DNA of 64,000 bases from Candidatus Nitrosopumilus sediminis (GTDB lineage Archaea > Thermoproteota > Nitrososphaeria > Nitrososphaerales > Nitrosopumilaceae): contig NC_018656.1 in the NCBI RefSeq assembly GCF_000299395.1, positions 1,054,001-1,118,000 of the forward strand. The letters run 5' to 3'. Positions 4,464 to 63,664 of this stretch are shown in pieces (within the stretch, counting starts at the first letter, position 1; the number at the start of each line of letters is the position of its first letter). The position numbers were made by a program, and so were the translations under genes. The notes below the pieces were generated by a model. It saw nothing but the letters and a program-made list of their open reading frames with translations. It made no database searches and was not told where the DNA came from.

Positions 4464-4507
4464 TATAGATAGAAAATTTGCAACCCTCATTTAAATGAAG
4501 AAAGTGA

Positions 4508-4699
4508 TCAGGATTTATGAGACTGTTTTTTAATATTTTTGTGAATCAAAGATCTAGAATCAAGGTACACATCAAAAAACGATACTCCTTCAAGCTGAGT
4601 CTGATGATCAATCTCCTGAATTTTTTTCAGTTCATCAGATGTCGCATTCAATACCATGTCATCTAATTTTTGCAAATCTTTACGCTCTTTAGGAGTCAA
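4508..4699 (-). CDS. Small conserved-type protein, paralogue of 5985-6191
   Basis: The 63 residues form a helical N-terminus (MTPKERKDLQKLDDMVLNA) followed by HQTQLEGVSFFDVYLDSR and a basic end. The block aligns by eye with DQAQKKGITFYDMVFEVL in the protein encoded on the other side of citrate synthase, so the two are probable paralogues. The start is TTG, and a cataaatg box about 22-30 nt upstream supports a leaderless message. It precedes the DHH gene on the same strand with a short gap and could be co-transcribed with it. Function is unknown. Confidence 0.6.
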   Translation of the reverse strand: MTPKERKDLQKLDDMVLNATSDELKKIQEIDHQTQLEGVSFFDVYLDSRSLIHKNIKKQSHKS

Positions 4700-4818
4700 G
4701 TAATTTTTTATTAAAAATTCTCATTTATGGCCAAAAGTTGGCATATTAGACTAAATACTAAATTTCATAGACATGATTTTGAGCGAAAATATAATAGAAG
4801 AAATTTTGTAGGCTCATT

Positions 4819-5982
4819 ATGGAGACAAAAAATATCGGCCTTCGTGGAATCGAAGTAGCAGATACGAGAATTTCCAATATTGACGGAGAGAAAGGAAAGC
4901 TAATCTACCGAGGATATGATATTTTAGAATTAACCAAAAATTCAACATTTGAAGAAACAGCATATTTACTTCTTTATGACAAGCTTCCAAATAGAAATCA
5001 ATTAGATGAATTTAATGCCAAATTAATTGATGCCAGGTTCATTCCAAAACAAATGCAAAAAAACATGGGCAATTGGAGAAAAGATGCAGATCCTATGGAT
5101 ATGCTTCAGGCTTTTGTGGCAGCACTTGCTGGATATTATGATGAAGAATTTGCAAACAAAGAAGCAAGTTATGATAAGGCAATAAACCTGATTGCAAAAG
5201 TTCCCACAATTGTTGCAAGTTGGAACAGAATAAGAAATGGACTAGACATAGTAGATCCAGACCCAACACTAAGTCATGCAGCAAATTTTCTATACATGAT
5301 GTCAGGTAAAAGACCAGATCCAGAAGTTGAGAAGATCTTCGACGTGTGTTTAATTTTGCATGCAGATCATACGTTTAATGCATCTACATTTACTGCAAGA
5401 CAAGTGGCATCTACTAGGGCACACATGTATTCAGCATGTAGCGCTGCAATTGGGGCACTAAGTGGGGAACTACATGGTGGGGCCAATACCGAAGTAATGA
5501 AAATGCTGCTTGAGATAGGAGATATCGAAAAAGTAGAAGAATGGGTTAAGAAAGAAATGAGCGAAGGCAACAGAATAATGGGAATGGGTCACGCAGTCTA
5601 CAAAACATATGATCCAAGAGCCCAAGTACTAAAAGAATTATCTAGAAAACTAGCAGAAAAAACAAAAGACCCATGGTTTGACATTACAGAAAAAATAGAA
5701 GTCACCACAATTTCTGAAATGAAAAAACAGAAAGGAAAAGATATCTATCCTAACGTAGACCTGTACAGCGCATCATTGTATTACATGTTGAAAATTCCAA
5801 TGGATCTTAATACTCCAATTTTTGCAATTTCACGTGTTGTGGGATGGGCTGCACACATCATCGAAGAAAAATTTGCAGAAGCTGCACCAAAACCAGCATT
5901 GTATAGACCAAAGGCCACTTATGTTGGAAAATATTGTGGACCTGAAGGTTGTGAATACCAAACATTAGACTTGAGAAAATAA
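4819..5982 (+). CDS. gltA: Citrate synthase
   Basis: The 387 residues match the usual length of the short archaeal/Gram-positive-type citrate synthase. Signature blocks are visible: RGIEVADTRIS and LIYRGYDI near the N-terminus, HADHTFNASTFTAR (catalytic His, about 186), LSGELHGGANTEV (about 215), GMGHAVYKTYDPRA with the third active-site region (about 258), and PNVDLYSASLYY near the end with the catalytic Asp. The enzyme condenses acetyl-CoA and oxaloacetate, feeding 2-oxoglutarate and glutamate synthesis in an autotroph with an incomplete or mainly biosynthetic TCA cycle. A TATA-like aaatataata lies about 25 nt upstream. It is flanked on both sides by small related genes on the opposite strand. 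Confidence 0.96.
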   Translation: METKNIGLRGIEVADTRISNIDGEKGKLIYRGYDILELTKNSTFEETAYLLLYDKLPNRNQLDEFNAKLIDARFIPKQMQKNMGNWRKDADPMDMLQAFVAALAGYYDEEFANKEASYDKAINLIAKVPTIVASWNRIRNGLDIVDPDPTLSHAANFLYMMSGKRPDPEVEKIFDVCLILHADHTFNASTFTARQVASTRAHMYSACSAAIGALSGELHGGANTEVMKMLLEIGDIEKVEEWVKKEMSEGNRIMGMGHAVYKTYDPRAQVLKELSRKLAEKTKDPWFDITEKIEVTTISEMKKQKGKDIYPNVDLYSASLYYMLKIPMDLNTPIFAISRVVGWAAHIIEEKFAEAAPKPALYRPKATYVGKYCGPEGCEYQTLDLRK

Positions 5983-5984
5983 AT

Positions 5985-6191
5985 TTAATTTCTAGTACTT
6001 AACCAGTCTTTGGCTTTAGAATTTACATCGTGCTTGTATAGAACTTCAAAAACCATATCATAAAATGTGATACCTTTTTTCTGAGCCTGATCATCTAGCC
6101 ATTTAATTCCATCAGCTAATTCAGGATCATATTCTGAGAATTCAACTAATTCATCAACCATTTTCGAGAAGAAGGCGTGAGATTCAAGCAT
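5985..6191 (-). CDS. Small conserved-type protein, paralogue of 4508-4699
   Basis: I chose ATG 6191 (MLESHAFFSKM) because it has a good AAAGGTG ribosome-binding site 8 nt upstream; the frame could extend to 6245. The 68-residue product is acidic and helical and ends with KKGITFYDMVFEVLYKHDVN, which parallels EGVSFFDVYLDSRSLIHKN of the small protein at 4508-4699. The gene ends 3 nt from the citrate synthase stop on the other strand, so the two converge. No known domain is recognised. The paired placement around citrate synthase could mean co-inheritance or simply chance. Confidence 0.6.
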   Translation of the reverse strand: MLESHAFFSKMVDELVEFSEYDPELADGIKWLDDQAQKKGITFYDMVFEVLYKHDVNSKAKDWLSTRN

Positions 6192-6274
6192 AAGTACACC
6201 TTTCAATCTTTGATCATAAGTGGGGGATTCAAAATATATTAACAAAAGACCCCTTTTTGGTTGACAATTGAACC

Positions 6275-6615
6275 ATGTTTTTTATTCAGATGCAAATGCA
6301 ACAGAGATTTCATGAATTATCAAAACAGACAATTCAACTGTTGAGCAAAAAAGAGAGCATGTAGAAATTTATAAAAATAAAATTACAGATTTGCAATCAA
6401 AATATGTTGCATTGCATATTGGTTTGTTTTGGGGGATAGGAGTGTTCATAATTAAAAATAAAGATACTATTAAAATAAAAATTAATGAAAAAACAATGTT
6501 TGATCAGTTATCAAAAGGAATAACGAGTAATGAACAATTTATTCAAAAAAGAATAAAATTTATCAATCAACTAATCACTCAAAGGAAATTAAAAATCGAG
6601 TATGAATTGATTTAA
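6275..6615 (+). pseudogene. Hypothetical protein gene disrupted by a single-base deletion in an A run
   Basis: Frame 2 opens at ATG 6275 (MFFIQMQMQQRFHELSKQ) and stops at 6361. Frame 1 then carries convincing protein from about 6343 (HVEIYKNKITDLQSKYVALH) to a stop at 6615. The two halves join in one helical protein of about 113 residues if one A is added to the six-A run near 6347-6352 (the joint would read KKRE). The second half has a short hydrophobic stretch (GLFWGIGVFII) and a basic C-terminus. No family is recognised. Whether the lesion is biological or a sequencing error cannot be decided here, but other genes in the window show the same error type. Confidence 0.55.
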
Positions 6616-6723
6616 AATATATCAGTAAATGCAAAAGAGCTTAAGACCAAAAACGGTTAGTTACTTGGTGAGAGCTCATTTGCAGTTTGTAAATTAATTA
6701 CGTATTTGATTCATAAAAGAAAT

Positions 6724-6887
6724 ATGTGTTCACATTCATTGACAACACCTCAACATCAATTAGAGCGATCTTATGAAATTTACAAAGGATTGGAGATATT
6801 TTTGTAAATATTTCAAACATATTAAAAATTAAAGATATCAAGAAAAGAACTGCCCATCATCATAAAAGTAAATCAGCCAAGTTGTGA
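6724..6887 (+). pseudogene. Possible decayed or frameshifted small gene in a 340-bp gap
   Basis: The 340-bp gap 6616-6955 has no intact gene on either strand. Within it, ATG 6724 opens 27 codons (MCSHSLTTPQHQLERSYEIY at the start), and the -1 frame continues as DIFVNISNILKIKDIKKR and a His/Lys-rich end to TGA 6887. Adding one base near 6793-6795 would give a 54-residue helical protein. This is weak evidence based only on protein-like composition. The last 40 bp of the gap hold the TATA region for the downstream cupredoxin gene. Confidence 0.25.
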
Positions 6888-6955
6888 AAATATGAAAAAT
6901 ATACGTAATTGCAAAGATTAGATTTATTTACCATACATCAAGTGATGGATCAATT

Positions 6956-8236
6956 ATGGCAGGTATAGACAGAGCTGCAATTGCATTTTCTATTGCAATT
7001 GTAGTAATCGGTGTAGGATTTGCATTCTATATGGATGGAGTTCAAAATGCCGGTCCCGTTATTTCTGCTCCAGTAGCTTCAAAGACTGTTGAGGAAAAAA
7101 CTCAAACAGACCCATTTGCAGATATTGCAAATAAGGTAAAACAAGAAGCTCCTGCAAAACCAATGAAATCAGGTTGGGATAGACTAACATCAGAAACAGA
7201 TCCTGGTGTAGGTCATGAAACACACCAACTTGCAATCATTTTGGCACCAAGTGACAAAGTATATTCAGGTACACTCAAGTATGATGCATCTGAACCAATT
7301 CAACTTGTTACACTACACGGTCCATTAGCAGCTGGAGAAGACAAAGGACAAGCAATTTGGACACCAGATGGTGAAACAAAGTTTGCATTAACATTTGTTG
7401 ATCCAAAGAATGCAAGAGGCGAATGGGAATTTGCCGGTAATGCTTTAGCAGTACATACAATGAATACCGAACCATTCATAGTTGATTACAAAGTAGATTA
7501 CAAAGAAAAACCAATGTCAGATACTGTAATGACTGGCACAGTCCAGACAGTACAGGATCCTGGTGTAGGTCATGAATCACATCAACTTGCAGTGCTTTTG
7601 GCACCATCAAGTGATGTATATTCAGGAATTCTTTCATACTCTGCTTCTGAAAATATTCAACTAGTTACACTACGAGGACCAATCGGTGCTGATGAAAAAC
7701 CAGCAAAGACATGGACACCAGATGGTGAAACTATCTTTGAATTAACATTTGTTGATCCAAAGAATGCAATGGGTTCTTGGAAATTCTCAGGTAATGCTTT
7801 AGCAGTTCACACTATGAAGACAAACCAAGCAACCATTAGTTATTCTGTAAGTGCAACTACAACTGCAGGAAAAACTGTTCAACTAGAAGAAAAAGTCGCC
7901 ATGAAAGAAACCACGGTAGACAAACCAACAGGACCAACAACTCACACAGTTGATATTCCAGTAGGTACTTCAGTTCCAGGATGTGAAGAAAGTAATGCAT
8001 GCTACTTACCAGCAGACATCACAATCAATGTTGGAGACACAGTAGAATGGATTAATATCGACACAGCAGCACACACAGTAACTGGTGGTAGTCCAGCTGA
8101 TGGACCATCCGGCGTATTTGATAGCAGTCTAGTCATGGCAGATGCATCTTATGCATTTACATTCAATGACTCAGGCAGTTATGATTACTTCTGCATGGTT
8201 CACCCATGGATGACCGGTAGTGTCACAGTGAACTAA
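6956..8236 (+). CDS. Membrane-anchored cupredoxin (plastocyanin-like) with two His-rich repeat domains
   Basis: Residues 8-27 are a membrane anchor or uncleaved signal. Two copies of a domain of about 100 residues follow (about 82-182 and 201-300), each with DPGVGHExHQLA, a QLVTL(H/R)GP block, WTPDGET and GNALAVHTM. The C-terminal 100 residues are a cupredoxin with a complete type-1 copper site: H373 (in AAHTVTGG), C413, H416 and M419 (in YFCMVHPWMTG). Such proteins carry electrons between ammonia oxidation and terminal oxidases in ammonia-oxidising archaea, outside the membrane. A related protein lacking the cupredoxin is at 33779-34822. The cupredoxin assignment is secure; the role of the His-rich repeats, possibly metal binding, is inference. 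Confidence 0.9.
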   Translation: MAGIDRAAIAFSIAIVVIGVGFAFYMDGVQNAGPVISAPVASKTVEEKTQTDPFADIANKVKQEAPAKPMKSGWDRLTSETDPGVGHETHQLAIILAPSDKVYSGTLKYDASEPIQLVTLHGPLAAGEDKGQAIWTPDGETKFALTFVDPKNARGEWEFAGNALAVHTMNTEPFIVDYKVDYKEKPMSDTVMTGTVQTVQDPGVGHESHQLAVLLAPSSDVYSGILSYSASENIQLVTLRGPIGADEKPAKTWTPDGETIFELTFVDPKNAMGSWKFSGNALAVHTMKTNQATISYSVSATTTAGKTVQLEEKVAMKETTVDKPTGPTTHTVDIPVGTSVPGCEESNACYLPADITINVGDTVEWINIDTAAHTVTGGSPADGPSGVFDSSLVMADASYAFTFNDSGSYDYFCMVHPWMTGSVTVN

Positions 8237-57588: not shown

Positions 57589-57618
57589 TAATTGATCTAA
57601 GCTAGATTGTCAGTTATT
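57589..57618. repeat. 30-bp direct repeat, right copy
   Basis: The sequence is identical to 53457-53486, 4132 bp away. Its last bases include the stop codon (57614-57616 on the minus strand) of the DUF1724-type regulator. Confidence 0.9.
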
Positions 57619-58414
57619 CTTTTAATTTACTCTCTTTGAAAATATCAGAGCCATACCAGCAATATCTGAAATAATCAAGACACCATTCATGAAACATTGG
57701 ATCCTCTGAATAGAACATCTCACTAATATCAGCATCCCCATCAACTGTTGGAAACATTATGCATGCCTCTTTCTCATTCATTACAAGGACTGTTTGAACA
57801 TTTTTTGTCATTTTTCTTTGAATTAATCCATCATCCATTAATTTGTCAAATCCCAATTTCTTGAGAATTGCCTTCCTTCCTTTTGGAACTACGACAGATT
57901 CAGAAAAAATGTAATCAAATTTTATTCCTTTCTTGACTTTCTTTATCAATGGTTCAATCAGATCTAAAGGAACTTCTGATAATATTTCGTATATGTAATC
58001 ATCAGAATTTTTGTAAATATTTTTCCATTGCTCCATTGTTTTAGAAAAACCCTTAACACGTTGACATACTGTTAATTGGCCACAACGCATTTGAAATTTA
58101 GTAGGAATTTCTCCAAAATTGTGGTCTTCAAAATATTTCCGATTTTGTGTAAGAAAAACTAATGATGGTACTTGAGTACATACTGTCTTTCCAAATGTCG
58201 TTAATGTATATTTTCCATCATTTTTCTTTTCAATCAAACCACTCTCTTCTAATCGTATAAAATTTCTATGTACTTCTTGTTTAGTCGCATCAATCTCTTT
58301 TGCTAATGTGGTGGGAGTAGAGTTTTTTTCTAATAACTTGAATAAAATTTGCATTCTTTGAGGACTAGCTAAATCAAGTACATAATTTGCAGTTTCATCA
58401 AACAGATCACTCAT
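57614..58414 (-). CDS. Winged-helix regulator with DUF1724/FilR1-like C-terminal domain
   Basis: Residues 10-85 are an ArsR-like winged helix (ASPQRMQILFKLLEKNSTPT, AKEIDATKQEVHRNFIRLEE, then the wing KKNDGKYTLT). The remaining 180 residues match the DUF1724-type sensor domain common in archaeal regulators (FGEIPTKFQMRCGQL, LIEPLIKKVKKGIKFDYIF, TVLVMNEKEACIMFPTVDG). Its ligand is unknown. It borders the islet on the left and a cluster of small redox-type genes on the right, so it is a plausible regulator of the shared promoter element at 58716 and 63533, but no binding data exist. Confidence 0.85.
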   Translation of the reverse strand: MSDLFDETANYVLDLASPQRMQILFKLLEKNSTPTTLAKEIDATKQEVHRNFIRLEESGLIEKKNDGKYTLTTFGKTVCTQVPSLVFLTQNRKYFEDHNFGEIPTKFQMRCGQLTVCQRVKGFSKTMEQWKNIYKNSDDYIYEILSEVPLDLIEPLIKKVKKGIKFDYIFSESVVVPKGRKAILKKLGFDKLMDDGLIQRKMTKNVQTVLVMNEKEACIMFPTVDGDADISEMFYSEDPMFHEWCLDYFRYCWYGSDIFKESKLKE

Positions 58415-58510: not shown

Positions 58511-58660
58511 CTAGCCAAAGATACCGCTAGCAACTGAATATGCTCCAATGCCAACTCCCATCACCACACCGATTCCCATGCAGATAAGATCGAATTTTAC
58601 GACCTTTTTGAAAGGGGCATGAACCATTTTATCCCAGTTTGAGATTTGTTGTGATTTCAT
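58511..58660 (-). CDS. 49-aa single-pass membrane microprotein
   Basis: ATG 58660 encodes MKSQQISNWDKMVHAPFKKV, then a hydrophobic glycine-rich helix (CMGIGVVMGVGIGAYSVA) ending in GIFG. A ctatctata box lies about 25 nt upstream on the minus strand. The position is divergent from the zinc-ribbon gene at 58767. A similar tiny membrane peptide is divergent from a microgene at 63584, where the same promoter element occurs. Confidence 0.65.
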   Translation of the reverse strand: MKSQQISNWDKMVHAPFKKVVKFDLICMGIGVVMGVGIGAYSVASGIFG

Positions 58661-58715
58661 GATCGTATTTAGTGATAGTTATAGATAGAATCAGGTAAAA
58701 ATAGTAGATTACAAG

Positions 58716-58745
58716 TAAGCTATGCAGCTGACCAAGACATATTGC
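58716..58745 (+). promoter_or_regulatory. Shared 30-nt promoter element, copy 1
   Basis: taagctatgcagctg-accaagacatattgc matches 24 of 30 positions of the element at 63533-63562. In both places the element ends exactly 21 nt before an ATG on the plus strand. The terminal tattgc-rich part sits where a TATA box is expected, so the conserved upstream bases probably include a BRE and an operator. Confidence 0.6.
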
Positions 58746-58766
58746 AAATTTTGATGTACTAGTATT

Positions 58767-58949
58767 ATGAGAGTTGATAGTTGTAGAAAATGTGGAATGG
58801 AACTAACAATCAAACAAGAATGTTCAATTTGTAATGAACCAATCAAGTTCAGTTGCAAAGAATGCTATTTTGAACCAGAAGAGCAAATTCATTCATTATG
58901 CAAATTAGTAGATATGAATCATAAACCATTAATTTCAGAAACAGCATAA
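58767..58949 (+). CDS. 60-aa zinc-binding protein
   Basis: The protein has many Cys pairs: MRVDSCRKCGMELTIKQECS, then CNEPIKFSCKECYFEP and HSLCKLVD. Three CxxC units suggest two zinc sites. It begins 21 nt after the shared promoter element. Its stop TAA overlaps the ATG of the next zinc-ribbon gene by one base (TAATG), so the two are translationally coupled. Function is unknown; it could be a metal sensor or a small nucleic-acid-binding protein. Confidence 0.7.
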   Translation: MRVDSCRKCGMELTIKQECSICNEPIKFSCKECYFEPEEQIHSLCKLVDMNHKPLISETA

Positions 58950-59167
58950 TGTCAAGAAATACAGGACCTTACCCACTATGCATAGGAAAATGTCAAGAAT
59001 TCCAGGTAAAGAGATTCGGATTGAGTAAAAGATATGAGTTGGGACAAAAATTATGCCAAATGTGTAATCAATGGATTCACTATGAAGGTGTATGGTGTCC
59101 ATGTTGTCACAAACGCTTGAGAACTAAACCAAAATGTAAAAAACGTACAGATTTTCCACGGATTTAA
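58949..59167 (+). CDS. 72-aa zinc-ribbon protein, coupled to the previous gene
   Basis: The sequence contains LCIGKCQEF, KLCQMCNQWIHYEGVWCPCC and a basic end (RLRTKPKCKKRTDF). CxxxC, CxxC and CPCC elements indicate zinc binding. MSRNTGPYPLCIGKCQEFQV at the start recalls short thaumarchaeal zinc-finger proteins. It shares one base with the previous stop codon. It probably acts with the 58767 protein. Confidence 0.7.
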   Translation: MSRNTGPYPLCIGKCQEFQVKRFGLSKRYELGQKLCQMCNQWIHYEGVWCPCCHKRLRTKPKCKKRTDFPRI

Positions 59168-59273
59168 CTTTTTGATATGATAATGGTCTAAATAAGATCA
59201 GTGAAATGAATGATATTTAGCATATTTTAGATAATTTTGGATACTAGAACCTCAGGATTTCAGATTGTTTAAT

Positions 59274-59819
59274 CTACTTTGACAAATTCCAAGGTCTAGA
59301 TTCTAAATAGTCAATTTCTTTAATCATGTCTTCTACTTTTTTTACTATTGCAAACACTGATTTGTATTCCTCGTACATGTTAGCCTCTTCTTCCTTTGTC
59401 AAGACATTAGCTTCAGCAGTATCAAAAAATTTGTTTTCTTTGTGCAAATGATCTTTTAGAAATACACCGTATGCATTAAGATATCTTGAAACAGGTTCCC
59501 TTTCATCAGATCCTTCTTTCCACAATTTAAGATGACGTGATATTAGACGTGCAACATTTCTTCCGAATTCATGTTCAACTAGAAATCGGTGAATCTCATC
59601 TTTTAGAGAACCATGATCTGACACGCATGGGAAATAGGAATTTTCTTCTCTAGAATGATGAATAGTATCAATAAACTCAGAAATTACAATCATAATTTTT
59701 GATAAATCTGAAAAGGGAATATCTGCACCTTTTTTTAATTCCTCAGAGCATTTGAAGACTATTTTTTCAAGACGTTTCACTTGATCATGATCTGCACGTA
59801 GTTGGTTAGTTGCACTCAT
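59274..59819 (-). CDS. Hemerythrin-like (HHE domain) protein
   Basis: The 181 residues form a four-helix HHE bundle with the di-iron ligands visible: H in LRADHDQVKRLE (about 10), HH and E in IDTIHHSREENSYFP (about 54-59), H in LVEHEFGRN (about 83), and H plus E in LKDHLHKENKFFD (about 122-127). Hemerythrins bind O2 or NO or repair iron centres. The C-terminus DMIKEIDYLESRPWNLSK is echoed by the microgene at 63584 (MDFLETRPWYLD). It is preceded by a 72-aa gene 14 nt upstream in the same operon. Confidence 0.88.
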   Translation of the reverse strand: MSATNQLRADHDQVKRLEKIVFKCSEELKKGADIPFSDLSKIMIVISEFIDTIHHSREENSYFPCVSDHGSLKDEIHRFLVEHEFGRNVARLISRHLKLWKEGSDEREPVSRYLNAYGVFLKDHLHKENKFFDTAEANVLTKEEEANMYEEYKSVFAIVKKVEDMIKEIDYLESRPWNLSK

Positions 59820-59833
59820 TTTGCATCACCAAT

Positions 59834-60052
59834 TCATTTGTCGGATAAAAATTCTCTGAGAACTTCAACAGCTCCTGACGTATCACATGCATCTAATCTG
59901 TCTAATAGGTACGATTCATCTTCAACTTGCTTCATTTTTTCTTTTAATTGTCTATATTTTGTGGCATCTTCTTGATTTTGAAATATTTGTTGTATGTCTT
60001 CTGAAGTTAGAGAACTGCCCTCGCATTTTGATTCCAATTCATCTTTATTCAT
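59834..60052 (-). CDS. 72-aa hypothetical protein upstream of hemerythrin
   Basis: The product is helical and acidic (MNKDELESKCEGSSLTSEDI at the start, YLLDRLDACDTSGAVEVLRE near the end) with two cysteines. It has no recognised motif. It is the first gene of a two-gene unit with the hemerythrin, so it may assist or regulate it. Confidence 0.6.
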   Translation of the reverse strand: MNKDELESKCEGSSLTSEDIQQIFQNQEDATKYRQLKEKMKQVEDESYLLDRLDACDTSGAVEVLREFLSDK

Positions 60053-60151
60053 TGATTTACATGTTTTTTATCGGAATTAAAGGAGCATCATGCTTATCAG
60101 AAGTGAAAATGAAAAATACACAGAGAATGATTAGAGGAGAAAGAAGGTTTT

Positions 60152-61864
60152 CTAAGTGACAATAAAAATAGAATATTCCAAATCCCTGATGAGACTTTGA
60201 TCCAGTTTTGTAAACTTGAAATCTAGTTTCTTGGCTCTCTCATATACTGAATTATCTATTACGATCGTATTGGGTAATGCATATTGATTAATCTTAAAGG
60301 CGATGTTGACAGGTTCTCCAAAAATATCATCCAATGAGGAATCAGATGTTTTTGCTTCATGGACCAGTCCAAATGCAGAACTGATTCTATATGAAATTCC
60401 AGGAAGATTTTCAGACTTTGTTTTAGCATTGATCTCCTTATCCATTTTTGATAATTCAAGACAACATTTGAGCATATTTGTCAAAACATCCTCATCTTCA
60501 GTCAAGGGGAAATAGAAAAGAATTGCATCATCCACTATTTTGATTGGGATTCCTTTGTATTTTTTTATAATAGGAATAACAGCATCAGAGAAAATTTTAC
60601 CGTATTGTTGTTTTTGTTCTATAGTCAATGATTTTGTTATCTTAAGAGAACCTACCAAGTCTATAAGACATACATAGCTATCGTGTTTTTCTTCAAAAAA
60701 TCTGGATAAAATATTGCCTTGTTGTTTGATAATATTTTCTCGTTTACCTATAGCTGAAATTGTTTCTTGAATGGTTTTTGCCATATCGTCAAATGATGTT
60801 GATAGCTGTTCAATCTCATCATTTGTTTGAATGTTTGTTCGTACATCAAAATTGCCTGAAGACAATTGTTGTGCAGCATCACGTAGTTTGAGAATTGGTT
60901 GAGATATTCTTCTTGAGAGAATAAAAGTAACAACACTTGCAATGACAATAAGACTGATTCCAACTAGAATTATCATATTTTGTAATTCTGTTATAGGTTT
61001 GAGAATAGCAGATTCATCAACCTCAGTCAATAAAACAAATCCCAAGTCTTTAGCACAATAAGAATATCCAAAGATGTCTACATTTCGGTAATCAGGATAA
61101 ACTTCTGCTTCAACATTTTTACCATTATCAAAACATTCTGAGACTGCAAATGTGTCTACTTTTTGATTAAATGGCGTATTTTCTAAAAAGATAGATTCTG
61201 AAATCATCATTCTGTTTTGGTTTACTAGATAAACTTCACCAGTATCATGTAACCCAAATCTATTAAGCAACACATTATCAAAGACCCCACTTCCCATTGA
61301 TGCAATCAATACACCCTGCTGATTACCATTTTCAGAGAATATCGGCAATGATATTTTTATCAATCTAGTTTTGTCTACATCCTGTACAAATTCCACAGTA
61401 GGCTTGCTGACTTTGAAATTACCTTTGATGTATGTTATTGGATCAATTTTTTCATTTAATGAGAAGATAGGTTTTCCTCGCATGTTAATAATTTGAAGAT
61501 CTCGTAATCCAGCTTCAAATTCATTTAGTTGAAATGAATAAAATTCGGTTTGAATTAGTGGTAGTTGTTCTTCTAAAATATTATGAAATGATACATCATC
61601 AATTCCAGGGATTAATACATTAAATGCATTTTTGATTGCCTGATTCTGAGAAAAACTCTGAAGTTTGTTAATTCTTGATTCAATTATTGAAGAAATTGTA
61701 TTACCCCTTGTTTCAGATTCATCTTTTAGGGATTCTTTGATGTTGTTTTTAATTATAGTGTCTGTGAAATTATACGCAAGCCCAGTGGTTACAGCTATTG
61801 ATGCTATACTGATTGCAAGCATCAAAATAATTAGTTTGGTACTGATACTTACAAAAGATTTCAT
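60152..61864 (-). CDS. Membrane sensor: extracellular Cache, HAMP and class III cyclase-like domain
   Basis: The 570 residues comprise a first transmembrane helix (about 7-29), a 260-residue extracellular Cache-type sensor (with VLIASMGSGVFDNVLLNRFG and GEVYLVNQNRMMIS), a second transmembrane helix (about 292-314), HAMP (SRRISQPILKLRDAAQQLSS), a short coil and a cyclase homology domain (about 395-570). Metal aspartates are present (YVCLIDLVGSLKI, IKIVDDAILFYF). The Asn of PVNIAFKINQY is kept but the catalytic Arg is Lys, as in the islet cyclase. It could convert an outside signal into a cyclic nucleotide. It is close to the hemerythrin and multicopper oxidase genes. Confidence 0.88.
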   Translation of the reverse strand: MKSFVSISTKLIILMLAISIASIAVTTGLAYNFTDTIIKNNIKESLKDESETRGNTISSIIESRINKLQSFSQNQAIKNAFNVLIPGIDDVSFHNILEEQLPLIQTEFYSFQLNEFEAGLRDLQIINMRGKPIFSLNEKIDPITYIKGNFKVSKPTVEFVQDVDKTRLIKISLPIFSENGNQQGVLIASMGSGVFDNVLLNRFGLHDTGEVYLVNQNRMMISESIFLENTPFNQKVDTFAVSECFDNGKNVEAEVYPDYRNVDIFGYSYCAKDLGFVLLTEVDESAILKPITELQNMIILVGISLIVIASVVTFILSRRISQPILKLRDAAQQLSSGNFDVRTNIQTNDEIEQLSTSFDDMAKTIQETISAIGKRENIIKQQGNILSRFFEEKHDSYVCLIDLVGSLKITKSLTIEQKQQYGKIFSDAVIPIIKKYKGIPIKIVDDAILFYFPLTEDEDVLTNMLKCCLELSKMDKEINAKTKSENLPGISYRISSAFGLVHEAKTSDSSLDDIFGEPVNIAFKINQYALPNTIVIDNSVYERAKKLDFKFTKLDQSLIRDLEYSIFIVT

Positions 61865-61947
61865 ATATACCGTGATTAATCTTAACTATTTTAATTAGTT
61901 TGCAGTCATCATGGTACAAATCTCAAATTGATAAAATACCTATGAAT

Positions 61948-63282
61948 CTAATTTACACTGACAGTTCCTTTCATCCAAGGATGTAATGTGCAAAGATATC
62001 CATATTCCCCAGGTTTTTCAAACGTGTTAGACCAAGTTTTTCCTGCTTGAATAAATCCTGAATCAAACGTATTTTCATCATCAGTTACAGTGTGTACAAC
62101 AAAGTCTTCGTTTGTCCAAGTTACAGTAGTACCTGAAGTAATTTCAATTGCAGTAGGATCATAAGACTCTACAACATCAGGATTCCATGAATCTTTCACA
62201 ATAGTTACTTTGTCTATTTTAATTTTCTCTGCATCAATTACTTGGGATTCTCCCAAGTTATCATATTTGATTAGTTTAGGTTGTTCCAATGATCTTATCA
62301 AATCTTCTTGCCACTCTATCATTGAATAACTTCCTTCACTGTTACTTGGAGTTTGAATTTCAGATAATGATGATGTATTTTCTAGCACTTCAATTATTGC
62401 CATAGAGCCACGTTCTTCTTGAATACCATGAACATGGAAAAGATATTTTCCTGGAGTGTCCCATGTTGCTTCAATTATGGCAGTATCCCCGTTTCCAATT
62501 AGATGGGTCTGTGCAAAATATGGTTCATTCCACAAAATTCCTGATGGATATACTTTCATTATTGTACTATGCACATGGAAGGGAGATTGCAATACACCAC
62601 CAATTCCAACTACATAGAATCTGGTTAATTCTCCTGAAACCACTTGAATTGGATTATCCATGTACTGGTTTGCATATCCATTTACTGGATAAAATTCTGT
62701 AAAGTACTCTAACGCATTATTAGGATCAAACTCACTTAGAGTGAAAAAGTATTCTCGTGCAGGTTCCATTGGACGTATTGCAGGATCAATTATCATTGCA
62801 CCAAACATTCCCATTCTCACATGTTCAGATGTTGGAAATGCATGGCAGTGATACATGAACAAACCAGCTTCATGTGCAACAAAATGATATGTGTATTCCT
62901 CACCAGGCATTATCTGTGGAAAGACACCATCATTTACTGAATCATGTGTTCCATGGAAATGGATTGTATGGGCATAAGGAGTTTCATTGACAAATTTAAC
63001 GGTAACATCATCACCCTCATCAAATCTTAGAGTTGGTGCAGGTACTGTTCCATTGTATGTCCACACTTTGGCTTTGACACCCGGTGACACTTCAATTTCA
63101 GCATCTTGAGCAATTAACGTATAAGATAATGTCTTAGGATTAGGATTTGTAAATTTGGGATATACATCAGATGATTCAGCAGAGGTAGTTTGAATTTCAG
63201 GGGATTGAATAAATGCTACAAATGCAATACTGAATCCAATTAAAACTCCAATCGCTACCAATATTGTTGTATTTTGTTTCAT
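61948..63282 (-). CDS. Two-domain multicopper oxidase (NirK-like) fused to a plastocyanin domain
   Basis: A membrane anchor or signal (about residues 7-26) precedes two cupredoxin domains (about 50-300) and a C-terminal plastocyanin domain (about 355-444). Type-1 copper ligands in domain 1 are H105, C146, H154 and M159 (MYHCHAFPTSEHVRMGM); type-2 or trinuclear His residues are in HTIHFHGTHD, PFHVHST and LFHVHGIQ. The C-terminal site is H397, C431, H434 and M437 (LCTLHPWMKG). This matches the AOA group of putative nitrite reductases/multicopper oxidases acting outside the membrane. A TAGGAG site 9 nt upstream supports ATG 63282. A 38-aa membrane peptide gene lies just upstream in the same unit. 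Confidence 0.9.
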   Translation of the reverse strand: MKQNTTILVAIGVLIGFSIAFVAFIQSPEIQTTSAESSDVYPKFTNPNPKTLSYTLIAQDAEIEVSPGVKAKVWTYNGTVPAPTLRFDEGDDVTVKFVNETPYAHTIHFHGTHDSVNDGVFPQIMPGEEYTYHFVAHEAGLFMYHCHAFPTSEHVRMGMFGAMIIDPAIRPMEPAREYFFTLSEFDPNNALEYFTEFYPVNGYANQYMDNPIQVVSGELTRFYVVGIGGVLQSPFHVHSTIMKVYPSGILWNEPYFAQTHLIGNGDTAIIEATWDTPGKYLFHVHGIQEERGSMAIIEVLENTSSLSEIQTPSNSEGSYSMIEWQEDLIRSLEQPKLIKYDNLGESQVIDAEKIKIDKVTIVKDSWNPDVVESYDPTAIEITSGTTVTWTNEDFVVHTVTDDENTFDSGFIQAGKTWSNTFEKPGEYGYLCTLHPWMKGTVSVN

Positions 63283-63294
63283 TAGATTTTTCTC

Positions 63295-63411
63295 CTATAA
63301 CACCAATGATAATACCACTATAGTAACAGCTGTAATGATATAGAATCCATAAAATGCCTTTTTGTGGCGAGGTATGACAAGTTTTGCTTTTTGTTTTAAT
63401 GTCAAATTCAT
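63295..63411 (-). CDS. 38-aa single-pass membrane peptide, first gene of the oxidase operon
   Basis: ATG 63411 is preceded by GGAG with 9 nt spacing. The peptide is a basic cytoplasmic stretch (MNLTLKQKAKLVIPRHKKAF) and one transmembrane helix (YGFYIITAVTIVVLSLVL). Its TAG stop overlaps the ribosome-binding site of the multicopper oxidase gene, so translation is probably coupled. It may be a small subunit or anchor for the oxidase. Confidence 0.65.
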   Translation of the reverse strand: MNLTLKQKAKLVIPRHKKAFYGFYIITAVTIVVLSLVL

Positions 63412-63434
63412 AATATTATCTCCATTAGTGTAAA

Positions 63435-63495
63435 GCGAGAACATTGTGAAAAAAACTCACAATTGCTTTCGTGTCTGGGGAAACATTGTTCTCGC
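63435..63495 (-). ncRNA. Candidate structured 5' leader of the oxidase operon
   Basis: gcgagaaca (63435-63443) and tgttctcgc (63487-63495) are perfect 9-bp complements. Inside, attgtga (63443-63449) and tcacaat (63457-63463) form a second perfect stem. On the minus strand this would be a 61-nt RNA structure between a TATA-like ctataccttat (about 63522-63533) and the GGAG/ATG of the 38-aa peptide gene, 24 nt from the start codon. It could be a riboswitch-like or protein-binding leader, or a DNA operator. Confidence 0.45.
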
Positions 63496-63532
63496 ATGAG
63501 ATAGATACTACACTTGTGATGATAAGGTATAG

Positions 63533-63562
63533 TCAGCTAATCAGCTTACCAAGGCCTATTGC
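63533..63562 (+). promoter_or_regulatory. Shared 30-nt promoter element, copy 2
   Basis: tcagctaatcagctt-accaaggcctattgc matches 24 of 30 positions of the element at 58716-58745 and, like it, ends exactly 21 nt before a plus-strand ATG. It lies between two divergent microgenes, one of them in the multicopper oxidase unit. Confidence 0.6.
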
Positions 63563-63583: not shown

Positions 63584-63664
63584 ATGAATGCTACAAACAA
63601 ACATGAAGAATTAATGATCAACCAAATGGATTTCTTGGAAACACGTCCTTGGTATCTAGACTGA
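63584..63664 (+). CDS. 26-aa microprotein echoing the hemerythrin C-terminus
   Basis: The frame begins MNATNKHEELMINQMDFLET and ends RPWYLD. The segment DFLETRPWYL resembles DYLESRPWNL at the end of the hemerythrin-like protein (59274-59819). The conserved promoter element 21 nt upstream suggests it is transcribed. It could be a true microprotein or the remnant of a deleted paralogue. Confidence 0.4.
   Translation: MNATNKHEELMINQMDFLETRPWYLD

Follow-up and report, generated by a model that had tools for sequence, protein, structure and literature searches.

A conserved palindromic promoter element with fixed start-site spacing and a candidate leader RNA family in Candidatus Nitrosopumilus sediminis

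Why do two divergent promoter regions of Candidatus Nitrosopumilus sediminis carry almost the same 30 nucleotides (nt) at the same distance from a start codon? Ammonia-oxidizing archaea (AOA) rank among the ocean's most abundant cells, and to our knowledge their transcription control is almost uncharted. A limited search of open-licence papers retrieved no published operator or leader RNA for this group. The two stretches, at 58716–58745 and 63533–63562, lie in a window of 64,000 nt (contig NC_018656.1, positions 1,054,001 to 1,118,000), to which all coordinates refer unless stated otherwise. A sequence-only reading had proposed them as a promoter element shared by a small regulon. Our analysis indicates that they probably represent the operator and regulon of an HVO_A0261/TrmB-like regulator, accompanied by a new leader RNA family.

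A recount confirmed that 24 of the 30 positions are identical and that plus-strand ATGs are found at 58767 and 63584, each 21 nt past its stretch. When 1/16 of all offsets were sampled, one bare 24/30 pair was found in the 64-kb window, and Markov sequences gave 0, 0 and 1; extrapolation from these samples predicts approximately 5–16 chance pairs per window. The 24/30 similarity alone is not significant across 64 kb, and its weight comes from position and conservation. The 30-nt motif was cut off-centre from the predicted unit, a 20-bp palindromic operator, of which it covers the portion nearest the TATA core. The full unit is an inverted repeat, GGTNAGCT-N4-AGCTNACC, followed by a TATA core. 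Operator A (58714–58733, no strand; AGTAAGCT-ATGC-AGCTGACC) and operator B (63531–63550, no strand; AGTCAGCT-AATC-AGCTTACC) each differ from it by one mismatch, operator A being compared with GGTNAGCTN4AGCTNACC. A search across the family with the half motif of the earlier reading at two mismatches returned mostly chance matches, a problem solved by recognizing the inverted repeat.

Operator A lies between ZnR1 (58767–58949, plus strand), a 60-aa CxxC/B-box-like zinc-binding protein with its ATG 33 nt away, and mTM1 (58511–58660, minus strand), a 49-aa single-pass peptide (WDKMVHAPFKKVVKFDLICMGIG...) with its ATG 53 nt away. The gene for a winged helix-turn-helix (wHTH) regulator, REG (57614–58414, minus strand), follows downstream of mTM1. 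Operator B is 33 nt from the predicted start sites on both sides, namely those of a leader RNA on the minus strand, ahead of the small single-pass peptide mTM2 (63295–63411 or 63295–63444, minus strand; PRHKKAFYGFY...) and a multicopper oxidase (MCO), and of a plus-strand open reading frame (ORF) of 26 codons (63584–63664), putatively coding. Both stretches are divergent from a minus-strand single-pass peptide, as the sequence-only reading had noted, with the correction that mTM1 and mTM2 are different families and that the plus-strand ORF at 63584 spans just 26 codons.

A motif search of the 1.69-Mb genome identified exactly four palindrome sites with no more than one mismatch, while the next-best sites need three. 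All four fall at mTM1, mTM2 or ZnR1 loci. Besides operators A and B, they comprise genome position 349137, at a duplicated mTM1-ZnR1-REG module, and genome position 1300096, at a second MCO-mTM2 locus that faces an mTM1 gene. The duplication at the former (locus L144, G000:C1:343137-355156, around 4492–7120) is recent and includes the operator, and a 42%-identical REG paralogue stands on its other flank.

The palindrome was then surveyed in 250 Nitrosopumilaceae genomes, with the reversed pattern as control. A total of 58 sites were found in 35 genomes, against 8 for the control. Within loci collected for the half motif and for ZnR1 and mTM2 homologues, 59 matches at up to three mismatches were counted, almost all with 0–2 (overlapping loci enter this count more than once), whereas shuffled sequence gave means of 0, 0, 0 and 4 for zero to three mismatches. 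Both arms of the inverted repeat are kept at orthologous promoters, and the palindrome occurs at the same genes, with a fixed 33-nt spacing, in dozens of relatives. The full palindrome is absent from genera whose REG homologue is approximately 60–66% identical. In these other genera, AGCTKA-N14-AGCTKA was identified in 16 of 21 mTM1 upstream regions; it corresponds to the TATA-proximal half-site placed twice with a 20-bp period and is followed by a CTATC-type TATA, with the ATG at 33–34 nt in 15 of the 16. No further occurrence was found in 131 kb of those loci, and none in shuffled upstream regions. These tandem half-sites show, independently of the first clade, that both the 20-bp unit and the 33-nt rule are genuine.

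The spacing was analysed on 57 distinct palindrome sites with 114 sides. An ATG stands at offset 33 on 50 sides, whereas the mean per offset is 3.3. At 32–34 it is present on 62 sides and at 52–54 on another 33, together 95 of 114. On the 52–54-nt sides, a second degenerate 20-bp site usually abuts the first and brings the spacing back to 33 nt. Its consensus, tGTAATCT-N4-xxTTTACC, was derived from 21 sides and is matched at a mean of 8.3 of 14 positions, against 3.4 in shuffled sequence. In the window this second site (58694–58713, no strand; TGTAATCT-ACTA-TTTTTACC on the minus strand) directly adjoins operator A towards mTM1, whose ATG follows after 33 nt. The first genes on 33-nt sides are ZnR1 (18), mTM1 (10) and others, those on 53-nt sides are mTM1 (29) and ZnR1 (3), and those on leader-RNA sides are mTM2/MCO (14), ZnR1 (5) and three others. 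In the window the offsets are 33 nt for ZnR1, the leader RNA and the plus-strand ORF and 53 nt for mTM1, so placed that operator B has 33 nt in both directions.

The core promoter also lies at a fixed position. ATG-aligned sides carry T/A-A-T at −27 to −25, with A at −26 in 50 of 50 and T at −25 in 49 of 50. Corresponding TATA cores in the window lie at 58740–58742 (plus strand; −27 to −25 of the ZnR1 ATG at 58767), at 63522–63524 (minus strand; promoter of the leader RNA, mTM2 and MCO) and at 63557–63559 (plus-strand promoter of operator B). This is the position expected for a start at the ATG itself, from which we infer that transcription starts at the ATG and that the promoters are leaderless.

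Because the motif abuts the transcription factor B recognition element (BRE) and TATA at a fixed distance from the start, it might instead be an extended core promoter, a BRE/TATA variant for one of several transcription factor B (TFB) paralogues. N. maritimus has eight TFBs, and Nmar_0013 is reported to replace Nmar_0517 as the dominant TFB in biofilm (PMC12448741). We consider this reading unlikely. Conservation is highest upstream of the BRE, and a TFB site should recur at many more promoters than four per genome. A dimeric regulator fits the 20-bp inverted repeat with its two conserved arms, the tandem 20-bp sites and the co-occurrence with REG. Recent promoter duplication or chance as the sole cause of the similarity is extremely improbable. 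The 349-kb copy is indeed part of a duplicated module, and chance alone would give several bare 24/30 matches per window; however, the window copies have only the operator and TATA in common, not flanks or genes, and the arms persist, with spacing that compensates, in dozens of species. The family counts, the ATG geometry and the tandem half-sites already contradict it.

Which protein recognizes the palindrome? REG carries the Pfam domain HVO_A0261_N (51 bits against a curated cut-off of 35). The sequence-only reading had called the adjacent regulator DUF1724-type, but REG has no match to the Pfam DUF1724/FilR1 or TrmB domains at E ≤ 0.01, and with NCBIfam ArsR models it scores 25–29 bits, below their cut-offs of 55 and 150. 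Foldseek of its AlphaFold model retrieved TrmBL2 (E 5e-6) and ArsR/SmtB folds; a phmmer search of REG against PDB gave nothing useful. Genomes encoding REG at ≥69% identity contain the palindrome in 33 of 43 cases, other genomes in 2 of 207 (Fisher 6e-30), and within the genus the figures are 21 of 25 and 1 of 70. Among the 58 palindrome copies, 56 are in genomes with a close REG homologue, with the other two, in G015 and G094, no more than the control rate allows. Some palindromes stand far from any close REG found, for example that at genome position 1300096. Given this co-occurrence and the adjacency of gene and site, REG likely binds the operator. The arrangement resembles archaeal TrmB/ArsR-type systems (TrmB, TrmBL2, ArsR/SmtB), in which a wHTH regulator lies beside a palindromic site that abuts BRE/TATA within its own divergent promoter region. 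It differs from them in the new 20-bp sequence, the rigid 33-nt rule on both sides and the tandem 20-bp sites, and in the scores of REG given above.

Several observations weigh against this assignment and the wider reading. Common descent and physical linkage inflate the co-occurrence. Four genomes (G011, G039, G241 and G242) encode REG at ≥69% identity but have no palindrome at the mismatch limits used, and the left arm is degenerate in genomes beyond the core clade. The AlphaFold model of REG is good for the wHTH only and poor elsewhere (mean pLDDT 59), so no sensor domain is assigned. In the leader RNA described below, helix P1 is nearly invariant, so that its support is conservation and not covariation. 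In addition, the genome holds six REG-family matches at E ≤ 1e-20, and a paralogue of REG could bind the palindrome, as could another factor such as ZnR1 or ZnR2, both Cys-rich and located at the operator. We regard such a binder as rather improbable, although somewhat less so than the TFB reading; ZnR1 relatives are found in 170 of 250 genomes, mostly without the palindrome, and close REG tracks the palindrome far better. The proposal of a shared regulator rather than chance is supported by the conserved palindrome and its geometry, not by the bare 24/30 match, which is compatible with chance, and the identity of the binder rests on co-occurrence and adjacency.

On the oxidase side, a structured leader RNA was predicted at 63435–63497 (minus strand), beginning 33 nt from operator B (ATGCGAGAACAATRTTTCCCTAGACCAGAA...TTGTGANTTTTTTTCACAATGTTCTCGC). 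It consists of three helices, P1 (GCGAGAAC/GTTCTCGC), P2 and P3 (TTGTGA/TCACAA, with an invariant U-run in its loop). In an alignment of 26 relatives, the 8-bp P1 is 97% paired, and P2 and P3 are also supported. Pairs change from A-U/U-A to C-G/G-C in P3 (columns 38/59 and 39/58) and from U-A to A-U in P2 (columns 19/31), the compensatory pattern of a structured RNA. Two-sided pair changes number 22 against 7.7 in shuffled alignments, the covariation score is 0.135 against 0.066, and slid structures score lower. The window RNA scores 83.0 bits (E 3e-18) with the covariance model R1, for which it is a training sequence. The model gave 38 matches in 27 of the 250 genomes, and in an even sample of the order the leader RNA was found in this family only. 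All 25 genomes with strong scores also have a close REG; in approximately 25 genomes mTM2-MCO and ZnR1 transcripts would begin with this RNA. In four genomes outside the training set (G108, G140, G014 and G012), the model matches have a palindrome with 2–4 mismatches at exactly −33.

No Rfam 15 family reached its gathering score with this RNA (best 15.8 versus 85.6 bits; none within 24 bits of the cut-off), and the conserved three-helix leader is best read as a new family absent from Rfam. Like cis-regulatory leader RNAs such as riboswitches and attenuators, it is a structured RNA at an inferred 5' end, with a Shine-Dalgarno-like sequence and then a start codon behind it in most copies. Unlike them, it belongs to no family at the Rfam gathering score and may hold a leaderless ORF. 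Weak model matches in L209 (G245) and L210 (G164) were not counted (E 0.001–0.008, no palindrome in the stretches read). The former, at 1500–1565 and from another genus, shows a CCAGACCAGA loop and a TGTGG/CCACA hairpin with no clear P1, and may be a distant relative of the leader.

The possible leaderless upstream ORF (MREQCFPRHESNCEFFSQCSRFTLMEIIL; 63408–63497, minus strand) overlaps the mTM2 start. Read from the first AUG, it stays open in 24 of 25 distinct sequences although these contain insertions and deletions (indels), and in-frame TAG and TGA are avoided at two conserved motifs. These features would also be expected if the conservation were due to the short coding ORF (MREQ..FPRP..) only and not to RNA structure, an explanation that we consider improbable. 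P1 and P3 are retained even where indels shift the frame within the element, and pairs in P3 and P2 change in a compensatory manner. A coding microgene as the sole content (MREQ...) was set aside on the frame shifts; ORF and RNA structure can both be true. In G088 and G092 (L149 and L153), mTM2 carries the upstream ORF as an in-frame fusion (MREH...PRHRKSFYGFY), whereas the window has two separate, overlapping ORFs. The open frame and this fusion suggest that the RNA structure may be accompanied by a leaderless leader peptide.

The operator, the candidate regulator, the associated genes and the leader RNA converge on one enzyme. The MCO (61948–63282, minus strand), which has a C-terminal cupredoxin, is of the MCO4a type and an orthologue of Nmar_1354; residues 35–443 match PDB 9cck with 838 bits over 409 aa. 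We take 9cck to be the Nmar_1354 (MCO4a) enzyme. The match with copper nitrite reductase NirK (TIGR02376) is 111 bits, below the equivalog cut-off of 296. A small regulon with zinc ribbons and a NirK-like oxidase, as had been proposed, is strongly supported by the four genome copies, conservation and fixed geometry, with the refinement that the oxidase is MCO4a and not nirK. Functional work cited in PMC12448741 describes conversion of hydroxylamine to nitroxyl (HNO) by N. maritimus MCO4a, and the same paper reports Nmar_1353 (hemerythrin), Nmar_1354 and a nitroreductase family as upregulated in biofilm. The activity is reported for the N. maritimus enzyme; the function of the window MCO is predicted by homology. 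The gene order REG-hemerythrin-MCO in G088 fits Nmar_1353 and Nmar_1354, and the window has hemerythrin, REG and mTM2 in common with this neighbourhood, but here a cyclase gene stands between hemerythrin and MCO. Relatives often show mTM1-nitroreductase (PF00881)-REG, or MCO with hemerythrin, cyclase and REG. The main text of a proteome study of H2O2 exposure does not mention multicopper oxidase, hemerythrin or nitroreductase.

In the reading that we favour, a dimer of wHTH REG, or of a paralogue, would most likely bind the 20-bp palindrome directly upstream of BRE/TATA. Since the site is symmetric and either start lies 33 bp away, a single copy could control two divergent leaderless transcripts, and on the mTM1 side the second abutting site would restore the 33-bp spacing. 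The bound regulator would recruit or block TFB and the TATA-binding protein at both promoters, activation being slightly favoured over repression. The oxidase-side transcript would start at ATGCGAG and fold at once into the three-helix leader RNA, which, perhaps also translated as a short leaderless ORF, may act as a switch and add a second layer of control on mTM2 and the copper oxidase. The earlier account had captured the shared cis element, which is refined here as a palindrome with two-way action, and had missed the second tandem site and the leader RNA. The predicted regulon comprises the Nmar_1354-type hydroxylamine-to-nitroxyl oxidase, hemerythrin, nitroreductase (in relatives), small Cys/zinc proteins and two membrane peptides. 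Genes of this kind point to reactive nitrogen or redox stress as the signal, which we name only tentatively. The stress might be sensed through REG cysteines; in an alignment of 23 family sequences, most members keep Cys 79, Cys 111 and three C-terminal Cys, which the two most divergent paralogues lack, and a sensing role for them is speculation. The full combination, an undescribed reactive-nitrogen regulon of AOA with a Cys-bearing TrmB/ArsR-like sensor on a bidirectional operator with 33-bp spacing and with a new leader RNA family (with leaderless ORF) as a second switch tuning the oxidase, is a doubtful but possible extension.

The analysis yields a precisely defined operator, one candidate for its regulator, the list of genes it would control and an RNA element without an Rfam entry, and makes a whole stress gene set testable. 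Hydroxylamine is the toxic substrate handled by the regulon enzyme, and its reported conversion to nitroxyl bears on the avoidance of self-poisoning and on N2O chemistry. The operator also precedes several tiny-protein genes at 33 bases.

Other genes in this part of the window include ZnR2 (58949–59167, plus strand), a second small Cys-rich protein with a stop/start overlap with ZnR1, and a hemerythrin (HHE) protein (59274–59819, minus strand), orthologous to the MCO neighbour in relatives. Between hemerythrin and MCO lies a dCache-HAMP-guanylate/adenylate-cyclase gene (60152–61864, minus strand), also an MCO neighbour in several relatives, with cyclase signalling adjoining the regulon there. 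At two loci (L148:5197-5412 and L153:5215-5427), a small secreted-looking peptide (MKTSIKAMFVIMAILSYHF...CEGGSC...DHRHEHKKKK) with a metal-binding look starts 33 nt from a palindrome. In G088 (L149, near 9694), a 45-aa zinc-ribbon ORF (METCPKCSNLVQ...) starts 33 nt from the fourth palindrome of that genome.

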